From Guyparkeria hydrothermalis (GTDB lineage: Bacteria; Pseudomonadota; Gammaproteobacteria; Halothiobacillales; Halothiobacillaceae): a DNA stretch of 64,000 nucleotides. Position numbers and translations under genes: made by a program. Shown one piece after another: positions 22,099-30,321 of this stretch. The notes beneath the pieces were generated by a model. It made no database searches and had not been told where the DNA came from. It saw only the letters and a program-made list of their open reading frames with translations. Numbering within the stretch: position 1 is the stretch's first letter; every line of letters starts with the position of its first letter. The stretch spans positions 389,001 to 453,000 of the forward strand of contig NZ_JAJSEE010000002.1 in NCBI RefSeq assembly GCF_023555375.1, read 5' to 3'.

Positions 22099-22421
22099 CC
22101 CGGACGGTGACCGTTCGCCTTGGCCGCCGGGTGAAGCCAACCCGCTGATCTGATAGAGTCGCGGCCTTGTCTGCAGGACTGCGCCGCCCTCTGAGCCCGC
22201 CGCGAGGCCCATCGCGAGGGCGTTCCCGCCGTTCGTCCGACTCGTCCTTATCGAACTCGATTGCGCCGGGGTAACGGCGCTGGCTGCCCGCGTTGCCGGG
22301 CGGCGTGTTTCCTCGCCGGATGGCGGGGCGAGACATCGTGTCGTCATCGCACAAGGCGATCGTGGCGGGTCCGGCGGCCGGCGGGCCTGCCGAAAACGAA
22401 TCCGCTGGACAGAGAGTCACG
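22099..22421 (+). promoter_or_regulatory. 323-bp gap: candidate promoter and hairpin-rich leader of the sulP operon
   Basis: No gene seen. GTGAAG (22131-22136), a 17-base spacer and TAGAGT (22154-22159) preceded by TGA form a weak extended promoter. Downstream are consecutive hairpins: 22263-22268/22275-22280 (GCGCCG/CGGCGC), 22286-22290/22297-22301 (GCCCG/CGGGC), 22346-22350/22356-22360 (ATCGC/GCGAT), and a CGCC/GGCG stem near 22314-22325. The implied leader of about 260 bases is long enough to hold a regulatory RNA structure, but I recognise no known riboswitch. Confidence 0.4.
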
Positions 22422-23912
22422 ATGAACTGGTACCGCATCAAGCAGGAATGGTTTTCCAATATCCGGGGAGACCTGCTCTCCGGGCTGGTGGTGGCCCTGG
22501 CGCTGATTCCGGAGGCGATCGCCTTCTCGATCATCGCCGGCGTCGACCCCAAGGTGGGCCTGTACGCCTCGTTCGCCATCGCCGTGGTGATCGCCTTCAC
22601 CGGCGGCCGACCCGGGATGATCTCGGCGGCCACCGCGGCCACGGCGCTGCTGATGATCACCCTGGTCAAGGACCACGGGCTCGAGTACCTGCTCGCCGCC
22701 TCGATACTCGCCGGGGGTCTGCAGATCGCGGCCGGCTACATCCGGCTCGATCGGTTGATGCGGTTCATCTCCAACTCTGTGATGACCGGCTTCGTCAACG
22801 CGCTGGCCATCCTGATCTTCATGGCCCAGCTGCCCGAGCTGACCAACGTCACCTGGCACGTCTACGCGCTGACCGCGGCGGGTCTGGTGATCATCTACGG
22901 GCTGCCCAAGCTGACCACCGCGATCCCCTCACCGCTGGTCACCATCGTGGTGCTGACCGTCATCGCCTGGTTCATGAACCTCGACGTGCGCACCGTGGGC
23001 GACATGGGCGAGATGCCGGACACGCTGCCGGTGTTCTTCCTGCCCGACATCCCGCTCAACCTCGAGACGCTGATGATCATCCTGCCGTACTCGGCGGCGA
23101 TTGCGGTGGTCGGCCTGCTCGAGTCGCTGATGACGCAGAACCTGCTCGATACGCTCACCGACACCAAGACCAGCAAGGCGCGCGAGTGCAAGGGCCAGGG
23201 CATCGCCAACATCGTCTCCGGTTCGATGGGCGGCATGGCTGGCTGTGCGATGGTTGGCCAGTCGGTGATCAACATCAAGTCCGGTGGTCGCGGGCGCCTG
23301 TCGACCTTCGTCGCCGGCCTGTTCCTGCTGATCCTGGTGGTGTTCCTCTCGCCGGTGCTCACCATGATCCCGATGGCCGCATTGGTCGCCGTGATGATCA
23401 TGGTCTCGATCGGCACGTTCAGCTGGGGCTCGATCCGCGATCTCAAGAAGCACCCGATGAGCACCAACGTGGTGATGGTGATGACCGTGATCGTCACCGT
23501 GGCTACCCACAACCTCGCCTACGGGGTGCTGACCGGCGTGCTGCTGGCGGCGATGTTCTTCGCCAACAAGGTCGGCCAGTTCATGCACGTCTCCTCGCGC
23601 CTGTCCGAGGACCCGAACGACCCGCGCCACCGCACCTACGAGGTGATCGGCCAGGTGTTCTTCGCCTCGACCGAGAAATTCCTCGAGTCGTTTGATTTCA
23701 AGGACGACGTGGATAAGGTGAGCATCGACCTCTCGAAGGCGCACTTCTGGGACATCACGGCCGTGCGCGCGCTGGACAAGGTGGTGGTCGACTTCCGCCG
23801 GGAAGGCATCGAGGTGGAGGTGATCGGCATGAACCAGGCCACCGCCACGATCGTCGACCGGCACGGCGTGCACAACGACCCGGACGCGGCCGAGAAGCTG
23901 ATGGGGCACTGA
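22422..23912 (+). CDS. SulP-family anion transporter with STAS domain
   Basis: A 496-residue inner-membrane SLC26/SulP transporter. The N-terminal segment [21 protein letters not shown] is the SulP signature (helix 1 with the conserved Pro-Glu). About 11-14 hydrophobic segments follow, with [22 protein letters not shown] in the core, and a STAS domain (about residues 405-490, containing [18 protein letters not shown]). Substrates in the family are sulfate, bicarbonate or other anions. In autotrophic sulfur oxidisers some SulP proteins serve inorganic-carbon uptake, a plausible alternative to sulfate. ATG 22422 is chosen by family start; the UspA gene begins one base after its stop. Confidence 0.9.
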
Positions 23913-23913
23913 C

Positions 23914-24792
23914 ATGGGAACCGAGAACATGAGCGACAACAAGGACCAGGTACTCGCGTGCATCGACGGCTCGCGTTCCTCCGAGGCGGTCAGCGACTAC
24001 GCCGTCTGGGCCGCGCAGGCACTGGCCGCCCCGCTGACCTTCCTGCACGCGATCAGCAACCCGCACGCCCCGGCCAAGACCGATCTCTCCGGCAACATGA
24101 CCCTCGGCGGGCGCGAGAAGCTGCTCGAGGAGATGGTCGAGCTGGAGGAGAAGCGCGGCAAGCTCGAGCGCGAGCGCGGCCGGGCCCTGCTGGCCGACGT
24201 GCTTTCCCGGGCGCGTGACCGGGGCTTCGACGAGCCGGCCGAACTGCTGAGAAACGGCGACATCACCGAGGTGATCCTCGAGCTCGAGGACGCCATGCAG
24301 ATGCTGGTGCTCGGCAAGCAGGGCAAGGACGGCGACGCGGTGGCCATGCATGTCGGCAGCCATCTTGCCGGCATCCTGTCGATGATCCACAAGCCCACCC
24401 TGGTCACGCCGCTCGCCTTCAAGCGCCCCGAGAGCTTCCTGATCGCCTACGACGGCAGCCCGACGGCCTACAAGCTCGTCGAGATGGCGGCGAACACCCC
24501 GCTGCTGCAGGGCCTGCCGGTGCACCTCCTGATGGTGGGCGAGGAGAAGCAGGCCAACTGGGACAAGATCCAGGCGGCCAATACCCGGCTGCAGAAGGCC
24601 GGCTTTTCCACGCAGGTCGCCATCCGCCAGGGCAAGGTCGACGAGGCAGTCTCCATGTACATCGAGGAGAAGAACATCGATCTGCTGGCCATGGGCGCCT
24701 ACGGTCACAGCCCGATCCGCTACCTCGTGCTGGGCAGTACCACCACCAAGATGATCATGAAGGCCAATGTGCCGCTGCTGGTGGTGCGCTGA
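23914..24792 (+). CDS. Tandem universal stress protein (two UspA domains)
   Basis: A 292-residue soluble protein with two UspA folds: VLACIDGSRSSEAVSDYAVW at the start and FLIAYDGSPTAYKLVEMA near residue 172. The second domain has the ATP-binding G2xG9xGS pattern (MGAYGHSPIRYLVLGS) near the C terminus; the first lacks it (VLGKQGKDGDAVAMHVGSHL). It is translationally adjacent to the SulP transporter, a recurrent pairing that suggests nucleotide-dependent control of transport. An ATG five codons downstream (MSDNKDQ) is an alternative start. Closed by a strong terminator at 24838. Confidence 0.9.
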   Translation: MGTENMSDNKDQVLACIDGSRSSEAVSDYAVWAAQALAAPLTFLHAISNPHAPAKTDLSGNMTLGGREKLLEEMVELEEKRGKLERERGRALLADVLSRARDRGFDEPAELLRNGDITEVILELEDAMQMLVLGKQGKDGDAVAMHVGSHLAGILSMIHKPTLVTPLAFKRPESFLIAYDGSPTAYKLVEMAANTPLLQGLPVHLLMVGEEKQANWDKIQAANTRLQKAGFSTQVAIRQGKVDEAVSMYIEEKNIDLLAMGAYGHSPIRYLVLGSTTTKMIMKANVPLLVVR

Positions 24793-24924: not shown

Positions 24925-24960
24925 AAAAAGGCCGCAACCGGTTCACCCCGGGCGCGGCCT
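24925..24960 (-). terminator. Rho-independent terminator of the fcc respiratory operon
   Basis: On the minus strand AGGCCGC (24960-24954) pairs with GCGGCCT (24935-24929), followed by four further T (24928-24925). It lies 24 bases past the diheme cytochrome stop codon. Confidence 0.75.
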
Positions 24961-24983: not shown

Positions 24984-25691
24984 TCAATCCACGGCGTAGT
25001 AGTCCGCCAGGGCGGCGATCTCCTCGTCGGTCAGCGGCGTGGCGAACTGGGCCATGCCCTTGGCGACGTCGTTGTGACGCGCGCCGTCCCGGAACAGCTC
25101 CATGGTGCGGACGAAGTAGTCGCGTGGCTGGCCGCGCAGGCTGGGCGACTCGTTGATGCCGCCCGAGCCGTTGCTGCCGTGGCAGGCCGCGCAGGGCGTG
25201 ATCAGGCGGCTGGGATCGCCGACGCTGACCAGGTCGTGTGCGGGGTGGGCGGCCTTGGGCTTGGCCCGGTCCGGCAGGCCCTGCTGCTCGTAGAACGCGG
25301 CCAGGTCGGCCATGTCCTGTTTGCTCAGCCTCTCGCTGACCACGGTCATGATTTGCGCGCGGTTGTCCTCGCGGCGGCGGTGCTCGGCGTAGTCGACCAG
25401 CTGCTTGTAGGTGTACTCGGCGCGTTGGCCGGCGAGATGCGGCCAGTTGCCGGTCAGCGATTCGCCGTGCTCGCCGTGGCAGGAGGCGCAGAAGCGCTGG
25501 TCGTGCAGGTCCTTGCCGCGTGCCGCGTCGCCGGTGGGCATCGCGCGCATGGCCTGGTGCCAGCTCGCCGGCGACCATTTGACGACGTCTTTCGACGCCT
25601 CGGCCGCCTGCGCGCCGGATACCGCCACACCGAGGAGAACGGCGCCGGCGAGGGCAGCGTTGGCCCATCGAATGGGATGATTGCGTGTCAT
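24984..25691 (-). CDS. Diheme cytochrome c (c4-like)
   Basis: A 235-residue periplasmic cytochrome. The signal peptide covers about residues 1-30 (ending AQAAE). Two CxxCH heme sites are CASCH at 68-72 and CAACH at 167-171, each opening a similar cytochrome c fold, with PHLAGQ..EYTYKQL and PSLRGQPRDYFVRTM as matching axial-ligand regions. This two-domain layout is that of cytochrome c4. AAGGAG precedes ATG 25691. Last gene of the fccA-fccB-bd-like operon; likely carries electrons between the flavocytochrome and the membrane complex. Confidence 0.9.
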   Translation of the reverse strand: MTRNHPIRWANAALAGAVLLGVAVSGAQAAEASKDVVKWSPASWHQAMRAMPTGDAARGKDLHDQRFCASCHGEHGESLTGNWPHLAGQRAEYTYKQLVDYAEHRRREDNRAQIMTVVSERLSKQDMADLAAFYEQQGLPDRAKPKAAHPAHDLVSVGDPSRLITPCAACHGSNGSGGINESPSLRGQPRDYFVRTMELFRDGARHNDVAKGMAQFATPLTDEEIAALADYYAVD

Positions 25692-25705
25692 CTCGTGACT
25701 CCTTC

Positions 25706-26929
25706 TCAGGCGTAGGCGGTCCAGAGACCGAAACCGAAGTACTGGGCGATCCACAGCAGCAGCAGGACGATGCCGGCGGTGCCGATGCGGTTGACGGCGC
25801 GTGACGGCGTGTAGGTGCCTTCCGTCTGGCCGGCCTGCCAGGCGACGGTCAGCAGGTAGGTGACCACCGCGCCGCCGAGGACCCCGAAGGTGAGGAAGAA
25901 CAGGCCGGTGGAGTACCAGTCCATCGTGATCTTGTAATCCAGCGGGTTGTAGCCGTGGACGCCGGACAGCGTCACCCAGCGCACCGCCTCGCGCATGGTG
26001 GCGATCACGATCATGGCGACGGTGGCGACGAGGATCGGCGTGTAGCCCCACAGCCCTCGGTCGAGTCGCCGGCCCAGCAGCACCGGGAAGGCCGCGGCGA
26101 CGATCAGCGCGGCGGCCGCGGCGATCGGCCAGATGCCGGTGGCGAACCCGGCGATGTCCTCGGGCAGGCCGCGCATCCAGCCGACCAGCAGCACCAGCGC
26201 CACCAGCGTGCCGACCGCGCCCAGGCGGGTACCCATGCGCTTGAGGAAGTCGAGGTAGCCCGTGCCCGCCTCGTGGCGGCCCTGCAGGTAACGGCGGTAG
26301 CCGAACAGCCAGATGCCGATGACCGGGATCGACAGGGCGATGAAAAAGCCGAATCGCCACGGGTCGAAGGCATGGATCGACCGACCGGAGGCGTCGATCA
26401 CGCCGTTCGGGGCGTACCACTCCTTCCACTGATCCGGTTCGAGCATCTGCACCGAGAGGGCGTGCATGATGAAGCCGACCACCAGGAACAGCAGCACCGC
26501 GAGGATCATCGAGCCCGGGCAGCGGGTCTTGTGGGTGCGCAGGCCGTGGTTCAGGGCGTAGAAGATGAACAGCGCGAGCGTCGCGACGATCAGGATGAAG
26601 ATGAACCCGATCACCCACCACGCCGAGAGGACGTTGGAGGTGTACCAGAACGGGTCGTAGATCACCTGGACGAACAGCAATGGTGCGACGCCGATCACGA
26701 TGGCGACCGAGACCGCCACCTTGGCGGTGTTGACCATCGCGTCGGCCAGCCGGCGCCAGTGGTCGTCTTTCGACAGTGCCCCGCGGATCGCCAGCACCGA
26801 CGAGCCGAGCAGCACGTGCACCGCGGCGATGTGCAGCGCCCAGGTGGCTACCCCGAGGATCAGGAAGATCAGCGGGTGGGCCGGGATGCCCAGCGGGTCG
26901 CGCAGGGCGTAGAGCATGGCGGTATCCAT
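25706..26929 (-). CDS. Multi-spanning membrane subunit of a bd-oxidase-like complex
   Basis: A 407-residue protein with about ten hydrophobic segments. Histidines H18, H33 and H38 lie in the first helix region (PAHPLIF, WALHIAAVHVLLG), resembling the heme-ligand helix of CydA-like proteins, and GVAPLLFVQVIYDPFWYTSNV echoes the second CydA helix hairpin. No classical CydB features stand out. It overlaps the stop of the larger subunit by one base, so the two are almost certainly partners (a CydA/CydA'-like pair). Assignment to the bd superfamily is by eye and moderate. Confidence 0.6.
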   Translation of the reverse strand: MDTAMLYALRDPLGIPAHPLIFLILGVATWALHIAAVHVLLGSSVLAIRGALSKDDHWRRLADAMVNTAKVAVSVAIVIGVAPLLFVQVIYDPFWYTSNVLSAWWVIGFIFILIVATLALFIFYALNHGLRTHKTRCPGSMILAVLLFLVVGFIMHALSVQMLEPDQWKEWYAPNGVIDASGRSIHAFDPWRFGFFIALSIPVIGIWLFGYRRYLQGRHEAGTGYLDFLKRMGTRLGAVGTLVALVLLVGWMRGLPEDIAGFATGIWPIAAAAALIVAAAFPVLLGRRLDRGLWGYTPILVATVAMIVIATMREAVRWVTLSGVHGYNPLDYKITMDWYSTGLFFLTFGVLGGAVVTYLLTVAWQAGQTEGTYTPSRAVNRIGTAGIVLLLLWIAQYFGFGLWTAYA

Positions 26930-28344
26930 TACTGGTCCTCCTCACGGCTGGAAGTGTCGAGCAGGGCGGTGGTCTCGCCATCGAGGTAGGCCTCGGCGGC
27001 CTCCGGGTCGTTGAGGCTGGCGATAAAGACGGCCAGGGCCTCGGCCTCGTCGTCCTGGAGCGGGATCTGCGGCATGTACATGGTGTTGCCGGTCGCCAAC
27101 GCCCCGAGCAGGTAGGTCCGAATACCCTCGACATCCGCCTGTTTCGGGAAGTAGTTCTTCAGCGGACGGATGCCGGTGTCGGAGAGCGAGTGGCAGTTGC
27201 TGCAGGCGGTGATCGCGAGGTTGCGGCCCACTTCCATGGTGTTCTCGCGGGTGATCTCCTTCTGCGAGTCCGGCCAGAACACGTGGGCGTGGGTGAAGCC
27301 CACCTTCTCCAGCGTGGGGATCTCGGATTTCACGCCCATGCCCGGCACGTCGTGGCCGATGACCTGGTTGGAGTACAGGTACTGACCGGCAATGTAGGGC
27401 TTGCGCACCGACTCGCGCACCGTCTCGCCCGGCCACAGGCCGAGGACCAGGATCGCGAGCGTGGCGAAACCGGCGACCGTGGCGGTGACCAGCTTCGGGC
27501 GGAAGAAGGTCATGGCGAAGTAGGCCAGCATCGCGCCCAGGACGATCAGGATCGACGGGGTGAAGTAATCCGGCAGGCGGTTTTCCATCACCAGGTGGGC
27601 GATGCTCGGCAGCGTGCCCAGGTACCAGGGGTACAGCGACATGCCGACGATCGCCGAGAGCCCGCCGACGATGGCCAGGCGCTTGAGCAGCCAGCGCTTG
27701 AAGACCTCGTCCTTGAGCCCGGCGGCGACGATGCCGCCGACCACGGCCGTCATGGTGAACATGAAGGCGGTGCGGATCATCAGCTGGGCGAAGGTGTTCG
27801 GCCCGTAGAAACCATAGAGGTAGCCGCCCTCGGCGAACCACTGCTCCGGCCGGCCTGGCATCATCATGAACGAGAGGATGCCGACGATCGCCAGCATGGT
27901 GGTGTAGGAGGTCAGGCCGAAGATCACGGCGACCTTCATGTAGGTGCGGCGTTCGAGCTTGCCGGCCAGATACACCAGCATGTAGACGCCGATCACCTCG
28001 ATCACGAAGAAGACCCACTCGGTCGCCCATTTCCAGACGAAGTTGTGGATCAGCGCCGAGATGCCGCGCGGGCTACCGACGGTGGTCGAATACCAGATGC
28101 CGGGGCCCGTGATCGAGCCGAGGATGTAGGAAAAGACCAGCAGGAACAGGCCGTACTTCTTGATGAAGTCGATCAGTTCCGGCCGGTTGTCCCGTGCACC
28201 GATCCAGGCGAGTACCGCGAACAGGATCGCGGCACCCACGGCCGTGTGCGAGAACAGGACGTGGATGGTGGCGATCAAGCCGATCACCCAGCCCGAGCCG
28301 ATCGCCGGCTCGTACCAGGTGGGAAAGAGTCCGATCAGATCCAT
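26929..28344 (-). CDS. CydA-like bd-superfamily membrane subunit with fused C-terminal heme c domain
   Basis: 471 residues. The N-terminal part (about 15-305) has some eight helices. H28 in ATIHVLFSHTAVG aligns with the CydA heme ligand helix. GSITGPGIWYSTTVGSPRG and WATEWVFFVIEV (E109, E116) recall the CydA 'GxxTG...G' and Glu-rich second helix. The position of the b558 histidine appears to read arginine (R191, MIRTAFMF). Residues 310-450 form a periplasmic cytochrome c domain with CSNCH at 381-385 and a downstream TMYMPQIPL Met ligand. Heme-c-fused bd relatives (reported as OR-C-type) accept electrons from cytochromes rather than quinol, which fits this operon. Confidence 0.7.
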   Translation of the reverse strand: MDLIGLFPTWYEPAIGSGWVIGLIATIHVLFSHTAVGAAILFAVLAWIGARDNRPELIDFIKKYGLFLLVFSYILGSITGPGIWYSTTVGSPRGISALIHNFVWKWATEWVFFVIEVIGVYMLVYLAGKLERRTYMKVAVIFGLTSYTTMLAIVGILSFMMMPGRPEQWFAEGGYLYGFYGPNTFAQLMIRTAFMFTMTAVVGGIVAAGLKDEVFKRWLLKRLAIVGGLSAIVGMSLYPWYLGTLPSIAHLVMENRLPDYFTPSILIVLGAMLAYFAMTFFRPKLVTATVAGFATLAILVLGLWPGETVRESVRKPYIAGQYLYSNQVIGHDVPGMGVKSEIPTLEKVGFTHAHVFWPDSQKEITRENTMEVGRNLAITACSNCHSLSDTGIRPLKNYFPKQADVEGIRTYLLGALATGNTMYMPQIPLQDDEAEALAVFIASLNDPEAAEAYLDGETTALLDTSSREEDQ

Positions 28345-28375
28345 GTCGGGATCCTCCTTTGAACGTGGGGCCGGT

Positions 28376-29728
28376 TCATGAGAAGCAGTCCTCGGTGAAG
28401 GCCTTCATCCAGTTGTGCTGGTAGAGCGCGGCGAGTCGGTATTCCGCCTCGGTGGCATCGAACGGCAGGTAGCGCTGCTCGTCGACGCGGGCGATGGTGT
28501 CGCCGTCCATGCGGAACACGTCGGCGACGAACATGCCCACCTCGGTGTTGCCGGCGAGCGCGTAGCAGGTGTTCTGGAACACCGGCTCGACCGGATCGTT
28601 GCCGGCCAGCAGGGCCTTGAGCTGGATGGCCAGTACCTTGGCCTGGCTGTTGGCCGCGTAGCCGGATTTCGGCATGGCCCCGGCAATGCAGGCGTCACCG
28701 ATCACGTGCACGTCGGCGTGTCGGGTCGACTCGAAGGTGCGCTGGTCGACCGGGCACCAGCCCGAGTCGTCGGCCAGGTCCTGGTCGATCGCGATCCGCC
28801 CGGCCTTCAGCGGCGGGATGATGTTGATCAGGTCGGCCTGGAAGGTGCCGGCCTCGGCCTCGACGGTCATGGTCTCGGCATCCACCGACAGGATGCGCCC
28901 ACCCATGTCGCCCATCACCCATTCGATCGGCCCGGGATTGTCGTGGACGGTCAGTTGCGCCCATTCCTCGTCGCTGTACTTCGAGCGGGCCGGTTCCGGG
29001 ATGTTGAAGTCGTAGAGGTCGTTCCAGGCGTGCAGCATGGTGTAGTCGGTGGTGAAGCCGTTCTTCGGGTCGAGGATCACCACGCGTGCCTGGGTGTCGC
29101 CGCGGTCGAGCAGCCATTGCGCGATCAGGCCGGCGCGCTCGTAGGGCCCCGGCGGGCAGCGGTACGGGTTGGGCGGCGGCCCGATCACCACGGTGGGGTT
29201 CTCGGGCAGGGACTCGAGTTGCTCCTTGAGCACCAGCAACTGGTCGCCGGCATCCCAGGCATGCGGCAGGCGCGTCTCGGCGAGCTCGGCGGTCAGCCCG
29301 TCGATGGCCTCGAAGTCGAACGACACGCCGGGCGAGACGACCAGGCGGTCATAGCCGAGGCGCTGGCCACCGGCGGTCCGGACCTGCTTGGCCTCAAAGT
29401 CGATCGCTTCCACGGTGTCGTGGACGAACTCGATGCCGTGGCGGGTCTTGAGGTCGTCGTAGGAGATCACGATGTCCTCGAGCTCGATCTGGCCGGTGAT
29501 CACCTCGGAGGAGCCATATGGACGCTGGTATTCGCGCTTGGGCTCGATGATGGTCACGTTGACATGCGGGGCGTAGAGCTTGAGGTACTTGGCGGTGGTT
29601 GCCCCACCCACACCGCCGCCGACGATGACAACGCGCGGCGCGCGTTCGGCACGGGCCAACGGGGCGGCGAGAGAGGAGGTGGCGGCGGTGCCGGCACCGA
29701 GGATCTTGAGAAAGTCACGGCGATTCAT
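28376..29728 (-). CDS. fccB: Flavocytochrome c sulfide dehydrogenase, flavoprotein subunit
   Basis: A 450-residue periplasmic FAD enzyme oxidising sulfide to sulfane sulfur and passing electrons to its cytochrome subunit. The Tat signal MNRRDFLKILGAGTAATSS covers residues 1-19. The FAD-binding motif VVIVGGGVGGATTAKYL begins near 33, the redox-cysteine region is YRCPPGPYERA, GDACIAGAMPKSGYAANSQAK binds FAD, and CYALAG holds the second conserved cysteine. Length is normal for FccB/SoxF. It starts 3 bases after fccA stops and precedes the bd-like genes. Confidence 0.93.
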   Translation of the reverse strand: MNRRDFLKILGAGTAATSSLAAPLARAERAPRVVIVGGGVGGATTAKYLKLYAPHVNVTIIEPKREYQRPYGSSEVITGQIELEDIVISYDDLKTRHGIEFVHDTVEAIDFEAKQVRTAGGQRLGYDRLVVSPGVSFDFEAIDGLTAELAETRLPHAWDAGDQLLVLKEQLESLPENPTVVIGPPPNPYRCPPGPYERAGLIAQWLLDRGDTQARVVILDPKNGFTTDYTMLHAWNDLYDFNIPEPARSKYSDEEWAQLTVHDNPGPIEWVMGDMGGRILSVDAETMTVEAEAGTFQADLINIIPPLKAGRIAIDQDLADDSGWCPVDQRTFESTRHADVHVIGDACIAGAMPKSGYAANSQAKVLAIQLKALLAGNDPVEPVFQNTCYALAGNTEVGMFVADVFRMDGDTIARVDEQRYLPFDATEAEYRLAALYQHNWMKAFTEDCFS

Positions 29729-29731
29729 GGC

Positions 29732-30133
29732 TCAGTTCTCCTCCGGGTCGAGGGCCTGACCCGTTGTCTGGTCACTTGCCGGGTCAATCGCTCGGGCGCG
29801 CTCTTTCGGCTGGGCTTCGAAGTAGTCGGCCATGGCCGCGATTTCCTCGTCGGTGAAGGCGCGTGCGAGCGGCCCCATCAGGGTCGAGGGGCGCGAGCCG
29901 TCGGCGAACGACTCCATGGCCGTGATGAACCGCTCGCGCGGCATGCCGGCCAGCGGCACGTAGGCCGAGTCCTCGATGTACCCCTTGGTGCCGTGACAGC
30001 CGGCGCAGGTCTGGGCGGCCATCAGCCCCCTGGGGTCGGTGGCGGTTGTGGTTTCGGCGTGCAGTGGCAGGGCCGCAACGGCGCCGCCTGTCGCCAGGGC
30101 GAGTGTCGCGCCCCTGATGAGTCGTCTGGTCAT
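29732..30133 (-). CDS. fccA: Flavocytochrome c sulfide dehydrogenase, monoheme cytochrome subunit
   Basis: A 133-residue cytochrome with a Sec signal (residues 1-26, LPLHA-E) and one CAGCH site at 43-47 (TCAGCHGTKGYI). PLAGMPRERFITAMESFADGSRPSTLMG supplies the methionine ligand region. The C terminus is a short acidic tail. Monoheme rather than diheme, as in Thiobacillus-type and SoxE-like subunits. Being immediately upstream of fccB and in the same operon fixes the identity. A candidate promoter with an adjoining palindrome lies about 70-120 bases upstream. Confidence 0.9.
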   Translation of the reverse strand: MTRRLIRGATLALATGGAVAALPLHAETTTATDPRGLMAAQTCAGCHGTKGYIEDSAYVPLAGMPRERFITAMESFADGSRPSTLMGPLARAFTDEEIAAMADYFEAQPKERARAIDPASDQTTGQALDPEEN

Positions 30134-30207: not shown

Positions 30208-30253
30208 AATGTACTTATTAGGTAAGCACTATGCAACATAAGCCTGGCTTATG
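30208..30253 (-). promoter_or_regulatory. Candidate fcc operon promoter with adjoining palindromic operator
   Basis: The 17-bp palindrome CATAAGCC-T-GGCTTATG occupies 30237-30253. On the minus strand it is followed at once by TTGCAT (-35), 17 bases, then TACATT (-10). The palindrome abuts the -35 box, as expected for a dimeric regulator acting on this promoter. The factor is unknown. The predicted leader to the fccA start is about 70 bases. Confidence 0.5.
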
Positions 30254-30321
30254 CCAAGCGTGTGGTGTCGATGAGGAGGGTGGGGGTGGTTTCAGCCCGG
30301 ACCTGACGAACGGGGATCGGG

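Follow-up and report, generated by a model that had tools for sequence, protein, structure and literature searches.

An operon joining flavocytochrome c sulfide dehydrogenase to a distant bd-superfamily subunit pair in Guyparkeria hydrothermalis

A putative sulfide:oxygen respiratory branch

A 64,000-nucleotide stretch of Guyparkeria hydrothermalis DNA (contig NZ_JAJSEE010000002.1, positions 389,001 to 453,000; hereafter the window) possesses five head-to-tail genes on the minus strand, which run from 30133 to 24984 in the order fccA, fccB, A, A', and c4-like. The genes fccA and fccB encode a flavocytochrome c (FCC) sulfide dehydrogenase, A encodes a CydA-like protein with a C-terminal heme c domain, A' encodes a second membrane subunit, and the last gene encodes a diheme cytochrome. 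With moderate confidence, we propose that this operon represents a dedicated sulfide:oxygen respiratory branch that bypasses quinone. The genes fccA and fccB are 3 bases apart, and fccB and A 31 bases; A overlaps A' by one base (TAATG), and 14 bases separate A' from the c4-like gene. A hairpin followed by TTTTT, which the terminator scanner did not list, starts 23 bases past the last stop. The gene order, the tight spacing, and the terminator at the end were all found where the original prediction, made from the DNA letters of the window, had placed them.

Association of fccAB with subunits A and A'

Four types of A-A' loci were distinguished: type I, in which A-A' occurs together with fccA, fccB, and c4; type II, in which a monoheme cytochrome accompanies A-A'; type III, which consists of A-A'-c4 and lacks fcc; and type IV, with heme c on both subunits. 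In a tree of 38 A proteins, a single branch sets each type apart from the rest (I, 98/97; II, 98/97; III, 100/100; IV, 100/100), so that the fccAB-linked A proteins make up one clade, while the A protein of L025 stands alone. FccB is located within 2.3 kb of A in 53 of 57 type I loci from two taxonomic orders, and the other four loci lie at contig ends. Of the 38 non-duplicate type I stretches, 35 hold all five genes, and contig ends cut the remaining three. FccB was found on none of the stretches of the other types: 12 of type II, 13 type III-like (counting L025), and 9 of type IV. These stretches span 3.8 to 15.6 kb, and seven are shorter than 11 kb. The linkage in 53/57 loci, the single A clade, and the lack of FccB on the other types led us to reject a chance neighborhood of fccAB and A, and the neighborhood is conserved. 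The gene order varies between fccAB-A-A'-c4 and A-A'-fccAB-c4, indicating that the five-gene set stayed together through rearrangement, and the partnership of fccAB with A-A' spans at least four families. At L106:4971-15913, the whole five-gene operon occurs twice in tandem, with two different FccB kinds.

The FccB proteins follow a similar pattern: the 26 operon FccBs group in a single clade (100/100) that excludes the 16 other FccBs sampled, among them the second FccB encoded in the own genome. The partner genes vary at the loci of five further FccBs of the operon clade, beside which no A was seen. The L204 gene is located in a run of fccA, fccB, COX2 (2e-9), COX1 (7e-82), and c4 (L211:5756-10601), and the genome of L211 (G825) gave no A match by the A profile. 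A heme-copper oxidase is thus found with fccAB and c4 at the position of A-A', which we take as the strongest indirect sign that A-A' acts as a terminal oxidase. COX1 and c4 are near the L201 gene on the other strand (L208), c4 is still beside fccAB at the L202 gene (L209), and no partner was seen at the L203 gene (L210). The L207 FccB belongs to the operon clade with no A seen, and its stretch stops at a contig end.

Subunit A as a distant member of the bd superfamily

The profile comparisons place subunit A in the bd superfamily, as a distant member. A profile built from the 38 A relatives matched the Geobacillus CydA chain 5doq_A over residues 11-236 (E=9.8e-8), and the window A alone matched Geobacillus CydA weakly (E=0.015). 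Of the 38 A members, 22 matched PF01654 with E values of 1 or less, the best being 1.2e-11, and the full A set gave 89.6% in hhalign against 13 CydA sequences and 0.9% against CydB. Together with the CXXCH found in all 38 proteins, these results bear out the earlier suggestion of a bd-superfamily protein with a fused heme c.

The residues H28, H33, E109, E116, R191, E307, R310, E311, R314, K315, and P316 are fixed in 38/38 A proteins, as are the heme c residues C381, C384, H385, and M424 (CXXCH and a distal Met). H28 is aligned opposite the His in the first transmembrane helix (TM1) of CydA, and E311-x-x-R314-K-P lined up with EYGRQPW of CydA in a forced global alignment only. The TM1 His and the E-x-x-R motif of the b595/d site are therefore present in all 38 proteins, the equivalence of E311 depending on the forced alignment and the motif; the counterparts in E. 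coli numbering are H19 and E445. Three relatives encoded on plasmids of Methylosinus, Thermus, and Agrobacterium likewise keep H28, H33, E109, R191, E311, R314, the CXXCH, and M424, and E116 is replaced by Asp in the Thermus plasmid relative. Hydropathy indicates about eight transmembrane (TM) helices in A, followed by the heme c domain, which is probably periplasmic by comparison with CydA.

The b558 ligands of canonical CydA are His186 and Met393. In the alignment, the b558 His falls opposite the residue before R191, or in a gap one to two residues off, and no His was found at the aligned site in 38/38 A proteins. A His four residues upstream of R191 occurs in 8 of the 38 relatives and is lacking in the window A; residues 192 to 306 contain no fixed His or Met, and no fixed His lies between R191 and E307. 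At the position of the CydA quinol loop, A has a loop of 18 residues according to hydropathy, which corresponds to a gap in the CydA alignment. The original prediction had proposed that R191 takes the place of the b558 His. R191 is indeed invariant and the site has no His, the aligned CydA His falling beside R191 or in a gap. The short loop and the empty site agree with the loss of the long quinol loop and of the b558 His. We consider that the low-spin heme b was likely lost from A, with some uncertainty due to M195 and the upstream His. Since both the b558 His and the quinol loop are gone and the gene set is conserved, cytochrome c rather than quinol, as first supposed, is still the best reading for the electron donor of A.

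Subunit A' as a CydA paralogue

The second membrane subunit, with about 10 TM helices by hydropathy, had been described earlier as multi-spanning and bd-related, which was upheld; that it is a paralogue of CydA rather than a CydB-like protein had been missed. When the 38- and 40-row alignments were compared, hhalign gave 97.3% between A and A' (E=2.3e-11) and 96.2% without the type IV rows, while earlier small alignments gave 52.5%. The corresponding value for A' against CydB was 1.1%, and A' as CydB was thus rejected. In the A'-A alignment, R192, E314, and R317 of A' are opposite R191, E311, and R314 of A, and H33 is opposite H28. The residues H33, H156, H186, and E314 of A' are fixed in 35/35 type I-III rows. 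Searches of A' against Pfam, NCBIfam, and PDB sequences returned no oxidase match. Judging from these alignments, A-A' is a CydAA'-type pair.

Sulfide dehydrogenase and the c4-like cytochrome

FccB matched 1fcd_A with E=3e-99 and contains the Pfam domains FCSD_central (8.7e-31) and TAT_signal, the latter being a Tat-like signal. Its redox cysteines are retained (CPPGPYER, NTC) and fixed in 8/8 aligned rows. In known flavocytochrome c enzymes, flavin adenine dinucleotide (FAD) is covalently tied to a cysteine, as stated in the available passages of PMC12010331. The corresponding position is Pro in the window FccB (YQRPYGSSEV) and in the Halothiobacillaceae-type relatives sharing this motif, and Cys in the other aligned operon FccBs. 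FccA matched 1fcd_C (E=3.8e-12) and 3vrd_A (E=2.1e-12) in phmmer and is a monoheme protein with a single CXXCH rather than a diheme subunit of FccAB. This is not unusual, because FCC cytochromes with a single heme have been reported in Guyparkeria (PMC6504805, in the part available). The c4-like protein has two CXXCH motifs and matched the cytochrome c4 6q2u in phmmer (E=4.1e-23), as expected of a cytochrome c4. The FCSD domains, the redox cysteine pair, and the 1fcd matches support the FccAB identity assigned originally, and the two CXXCH motifs and the 6q2u match support that of the diheme c4-like cytochrome.

Features of the locus and its surroundings

The features of the operon are listed in Table 1. 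Among named relatives, a Halothiobacillus sp. metagenome-assembled genome comes nearest at this locus, with an A that is 89% identical. Beside the operon, on the plus strand (22293-24792), there are a sulfate-permease-family transporter gene with a STAS domain and then a universal-stress-protein gene, the latter matched in two stretches.

Table 1. Coordinates of the operon features in the window and of the type III loci next to a membrane H+-pyrophosphatase gene
Feature	Position	Strand	Description and basis
fccA	29732..30133	-	133 amino acid (aa) precursor, one CXXCH; monoheme c subunit of flavocytochrome c sulfide dehydrogenase; phmmer
fccB	28376..29728	-	450 aa; flavoprotein subunit of sulfide dehydrogenase; Pfam, 1fcd_A match, motif alignment
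A	26929..28344	-	471 aa, CSNCH; CydA-like, C-terminal heme c domain; profile, hhalign, hydropathy
A'	25706..26929	-	407 aa; second membrane subunit, distant A paralogue (CydA'); hhalign, hydropathy
c4-like diheme cytochrome, electron carrier	24984..25691	-	235 aa, two CXXCH; phmmer vs 6q2u
Probable intrinsic terminator (AGGCCGC...GCGGCC TTTTT)	24925..24960	-	Hairpin judged by eye
Promoter-like site (TTGGCA, 18, CATAGT)	30228..30257	-	Weak: 1 found vs 0.7 expected
Type III loci beside H+-pyrophosphatase	L024:8650-10659; L139:8659-10674; L141:3419-5374; L143:8695-10833		

Distribution of A-A' loci

The genomes were searched as samples, with one genome per species. The A profile matched 10 of 369 genomes in the class sample and 6 of 398 in the phylum sample (the own genome included in both), with three of the latter six matches short and confined to the heme c part. 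At the order level, the matches comprised 14 of 27 genomes in the own order (own genome included), 42 of 62 in one related order, and 19 of 121 in a third order.

At L025:5165-8344, A' carries a fused C-terminal part in which two CXXCH motifs occur, resembling a built-in c4 donor. The type III A-A'-c4 adjoins a membrane H+-pyrophosphatase gene (PF03030) in 4/4 loci tested. Some type II-like A-A' adjoin a histidine kinase and a response regulator (L087:8585-10487, L213:11047-12943, and L216:10766-12554), which are possibly a redox regulator. On the Methylosinus plasmid pMSC49c (L213:8001-17353), A-A'-cytochrome c is located beside genes for methanobactin, a copper chelator; a copper-free oxidase would make sense there.

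Annotation of the plasmid relatives names A and A' 'cytochrome c' and 'hypothetical protein' in three of four cases, and 'c-type cytochrome' and 'cytochrome C' in the fourth. No Pfam or NCBIfam oxidase model matched the window A and A' over cut-off, so the pair may be a terminal oxidase overlooked by annotation.

Proposed electron pathway and its alternatives

By homology, FccB would oxidize sulfide at its FAD and redox disulfide and pass the electrons to the FccA heme, from which the diheme c4-like cytochrome would ferry them to the C-terminal heme c of A. This heme c would substitute for the low-spin heme b558 and the quinol site that an ordinary cytochrome bd possesses, and would deliver electrons to the His/Glu heme site of A for O2 reduction. 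A' would act as the CydA' partner in place of CydB, and the electrons would bypass both the quinone pool and the bc1 complex. The first steps, from sulfide to FccB and FccA, follow established FccAB biochemistry; c4 as a direct donor has its precedent in the cbb3-c4 entries discussed below, and O2 reduction at A is suggested by the retained ligands and by the L211 locus. The heme content, the direction of electron flow, O2 as the acceptor, and the physical complex are all things that we infer from sequence. A more specific version is tentative, namely that FccAB, c4, and a quinol-independent CydAA' without b558 form one membrane-bound sulfide:O2 oxidoreductase, with heme c taking over from b558 and A' holding a second ligand set (H33, H156, H186, and E314).

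In the own genome (2.43 Mb), a profile search found no PF01654 CydA, and the presence of a canonical CydA was thus rejected. Several observations weigh against the proposed branch. Three heme-copper oxidase subunits I are encoded in the same genome, and there are two FccB genes, the operon copy and a higher-scoring copy on contig C3. No CydC was found over the curated cut-off in this genome (best 226 vs 329 bits), which makes standard bd assembly and heme d doubtful. The window A alone had no bd match in Pfam, PF01654 included, and PF02322 (CydB) matched two of the 38 A members weakly (best 0.089). Without the five type IV rows, the hhalign value of A against CydA dropped to 11% (21% with a smaller CydA set), indicating that the A-CydA link leans on these rows. 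A direct comparison of A' with CydA gave 31.6%, falling to 2% once type IV and L025 were left out; this direct match is weak, and the CydA' identity of A' depends on its relation to A. M195, four residues past R191, is Met in 32 of the 38 A proteins. Finally, the operon FccB clade also holds five FccBs not seen beside A, the operon label needs six changes on the FccB tree, and 13 of the 27 genomes in the own order have no A match.

Among the alternatives, A-A' might pass the electrons of c4 or FccA to something other than O2, such as quinone (reverse transport, in an alternative-complex-III-like manner), nitric oxide, peroxide, or sulfur species, which we regard as unlikely. In the available part of PMC3578206, the function of the bd-like proteins of nitrite oxidizers is described as enigmatic, and a role resembling that of alternative complex III is suggested should they interact with quinone. 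This, the lack of a CydC over cut-off, and the three fixed His of A' would fit a non-O2 acceptor; against it stand the loss of the long quinol loop, the His and Glu expected of an O2 site in every A, and the heme-copper oxidase beside the same kind of FccAB in L211.

It is also rather improbable that A-A'-c4 is a general bd-superfamily cytochrome c oxidase, with fccAB merely co-expressed under sulfidic conditions and feeding a common cytochrome c pool. Such a role is consistent with the type III loci, which have their own clade, and the type II loci, both of which exist without a neighboring FccAB. However, the link in type I is near absolute and survived a change of gene order, and the linked FccBs form a clade to which the second FccB encoded in the own genome does not belong. 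That A-A' is a mere membrane anchor or electron outlet for FccAB, without a catalytic heme site, seems highly improbable: a membrane-bound flavocytochrome c is on record from Thiobacillus sp. W5 (Visser 1997; kinetic values tabulated in PMC3504083, as far as that source was available), but the His, Glu, and Arg fixed in 38 A proteins, mostly kept in plasmid relatives without neighboring fccAB, point to a conserved heme enzyme.

If the sulfide:oxygen branch is real, the energy accounting of sulfide oxidation changes, because the electrons would skip quinone and bc1.

Comparison with known systems

Compared with the FccAB of 1fcd, the operon shares the FccB domains, the redox cysteines, and a c-type partner, and differs in its monoheme FccA, in the Pro at the FAD-cysteine position in the window branch, and in the conserved oxidase-like partner genes. 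With the cytochrome bd quinol oxidase CydAB, A shares homology to CydA at the profile level, the TM1 His, the E-x-x-R-x-P motif, and, in the region of the third helix, a Glu that is conserved. Unlike CydAB, A lacks the b558 His and the long quinol loop and has a C-terminal heme c, CydA' is present instead of CydB, and the own genome has no CydC over cut-off. Entries 8smr and 8snh, in which a c4 chain occurs together with cbb3 oxidase subunits, provide the precedent for c4 as a direct donor, although the presumed oxidase of our operon is bd-like.

FCC and CydAB were listed together in the same three strains in a table of the Hydrogenovibrio thermophilus S5 paper, and neither in XCL-2 (PMC5733100). 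In the available text of that paper, no operon, heme c fusion, or mutual link was described, and the 'CydAB' listed may be an A-A' pair or a canonical bd. The Guyparkeria papers PMC9032823 and PMC6504805 name FCC and heme-copper oxidases, and the term 'bd-type' is absent from their available passages. Within the open-access full-text literature searched, which excludes subscription papers, we recognized no description of an operon with fccAB and bd-like genes. In Nitrospina, a bd-like gene that neighbors nitrite oxidoreductase was called enigmatic (PMC3578206). As far as that source was available, its product is likewise without a quinol site and near a dehydrogenase and c-type cytochromes, but it has 14 helices, and its donor would be nitrite oxidoreductase instead of FccAB.

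In its features, the A-A' pair resembles OR-C/CydAA', which also combines a CydA and CydA' pair, a C-terminal heme c, and a presumed cytochrome c donor. The C-terminal heme c on CydA is a feature of OR-C, and the OR-C and OR-N/CydAA' families were reportedly described by Murali, Gennis and Hemp in 2021. OR-N and OR-C have been described as bd-superfamily proteins without a quinol site and with cytochrome c as the presumed donor; according to the available part of PMC10839748, experimental confirmation that non-quinol bd proteins take electrons from cytochrome c is lacking. The operon offers a named donor and carrier in bacteria near cultured ones (Halothiobacillus and Thiomicrorhabdus), so that whether a bd-type enzyme can act as a cytochrome c oxidase could be tested using sulfide as the substrate. 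It differs from OR-C/CydAA' in that A-A' is tied to sulfide dehydrogenase and c4 in one operon; the parts themselves are known, and the new element would be their conserved partnership with sulfide dehydrogenase.

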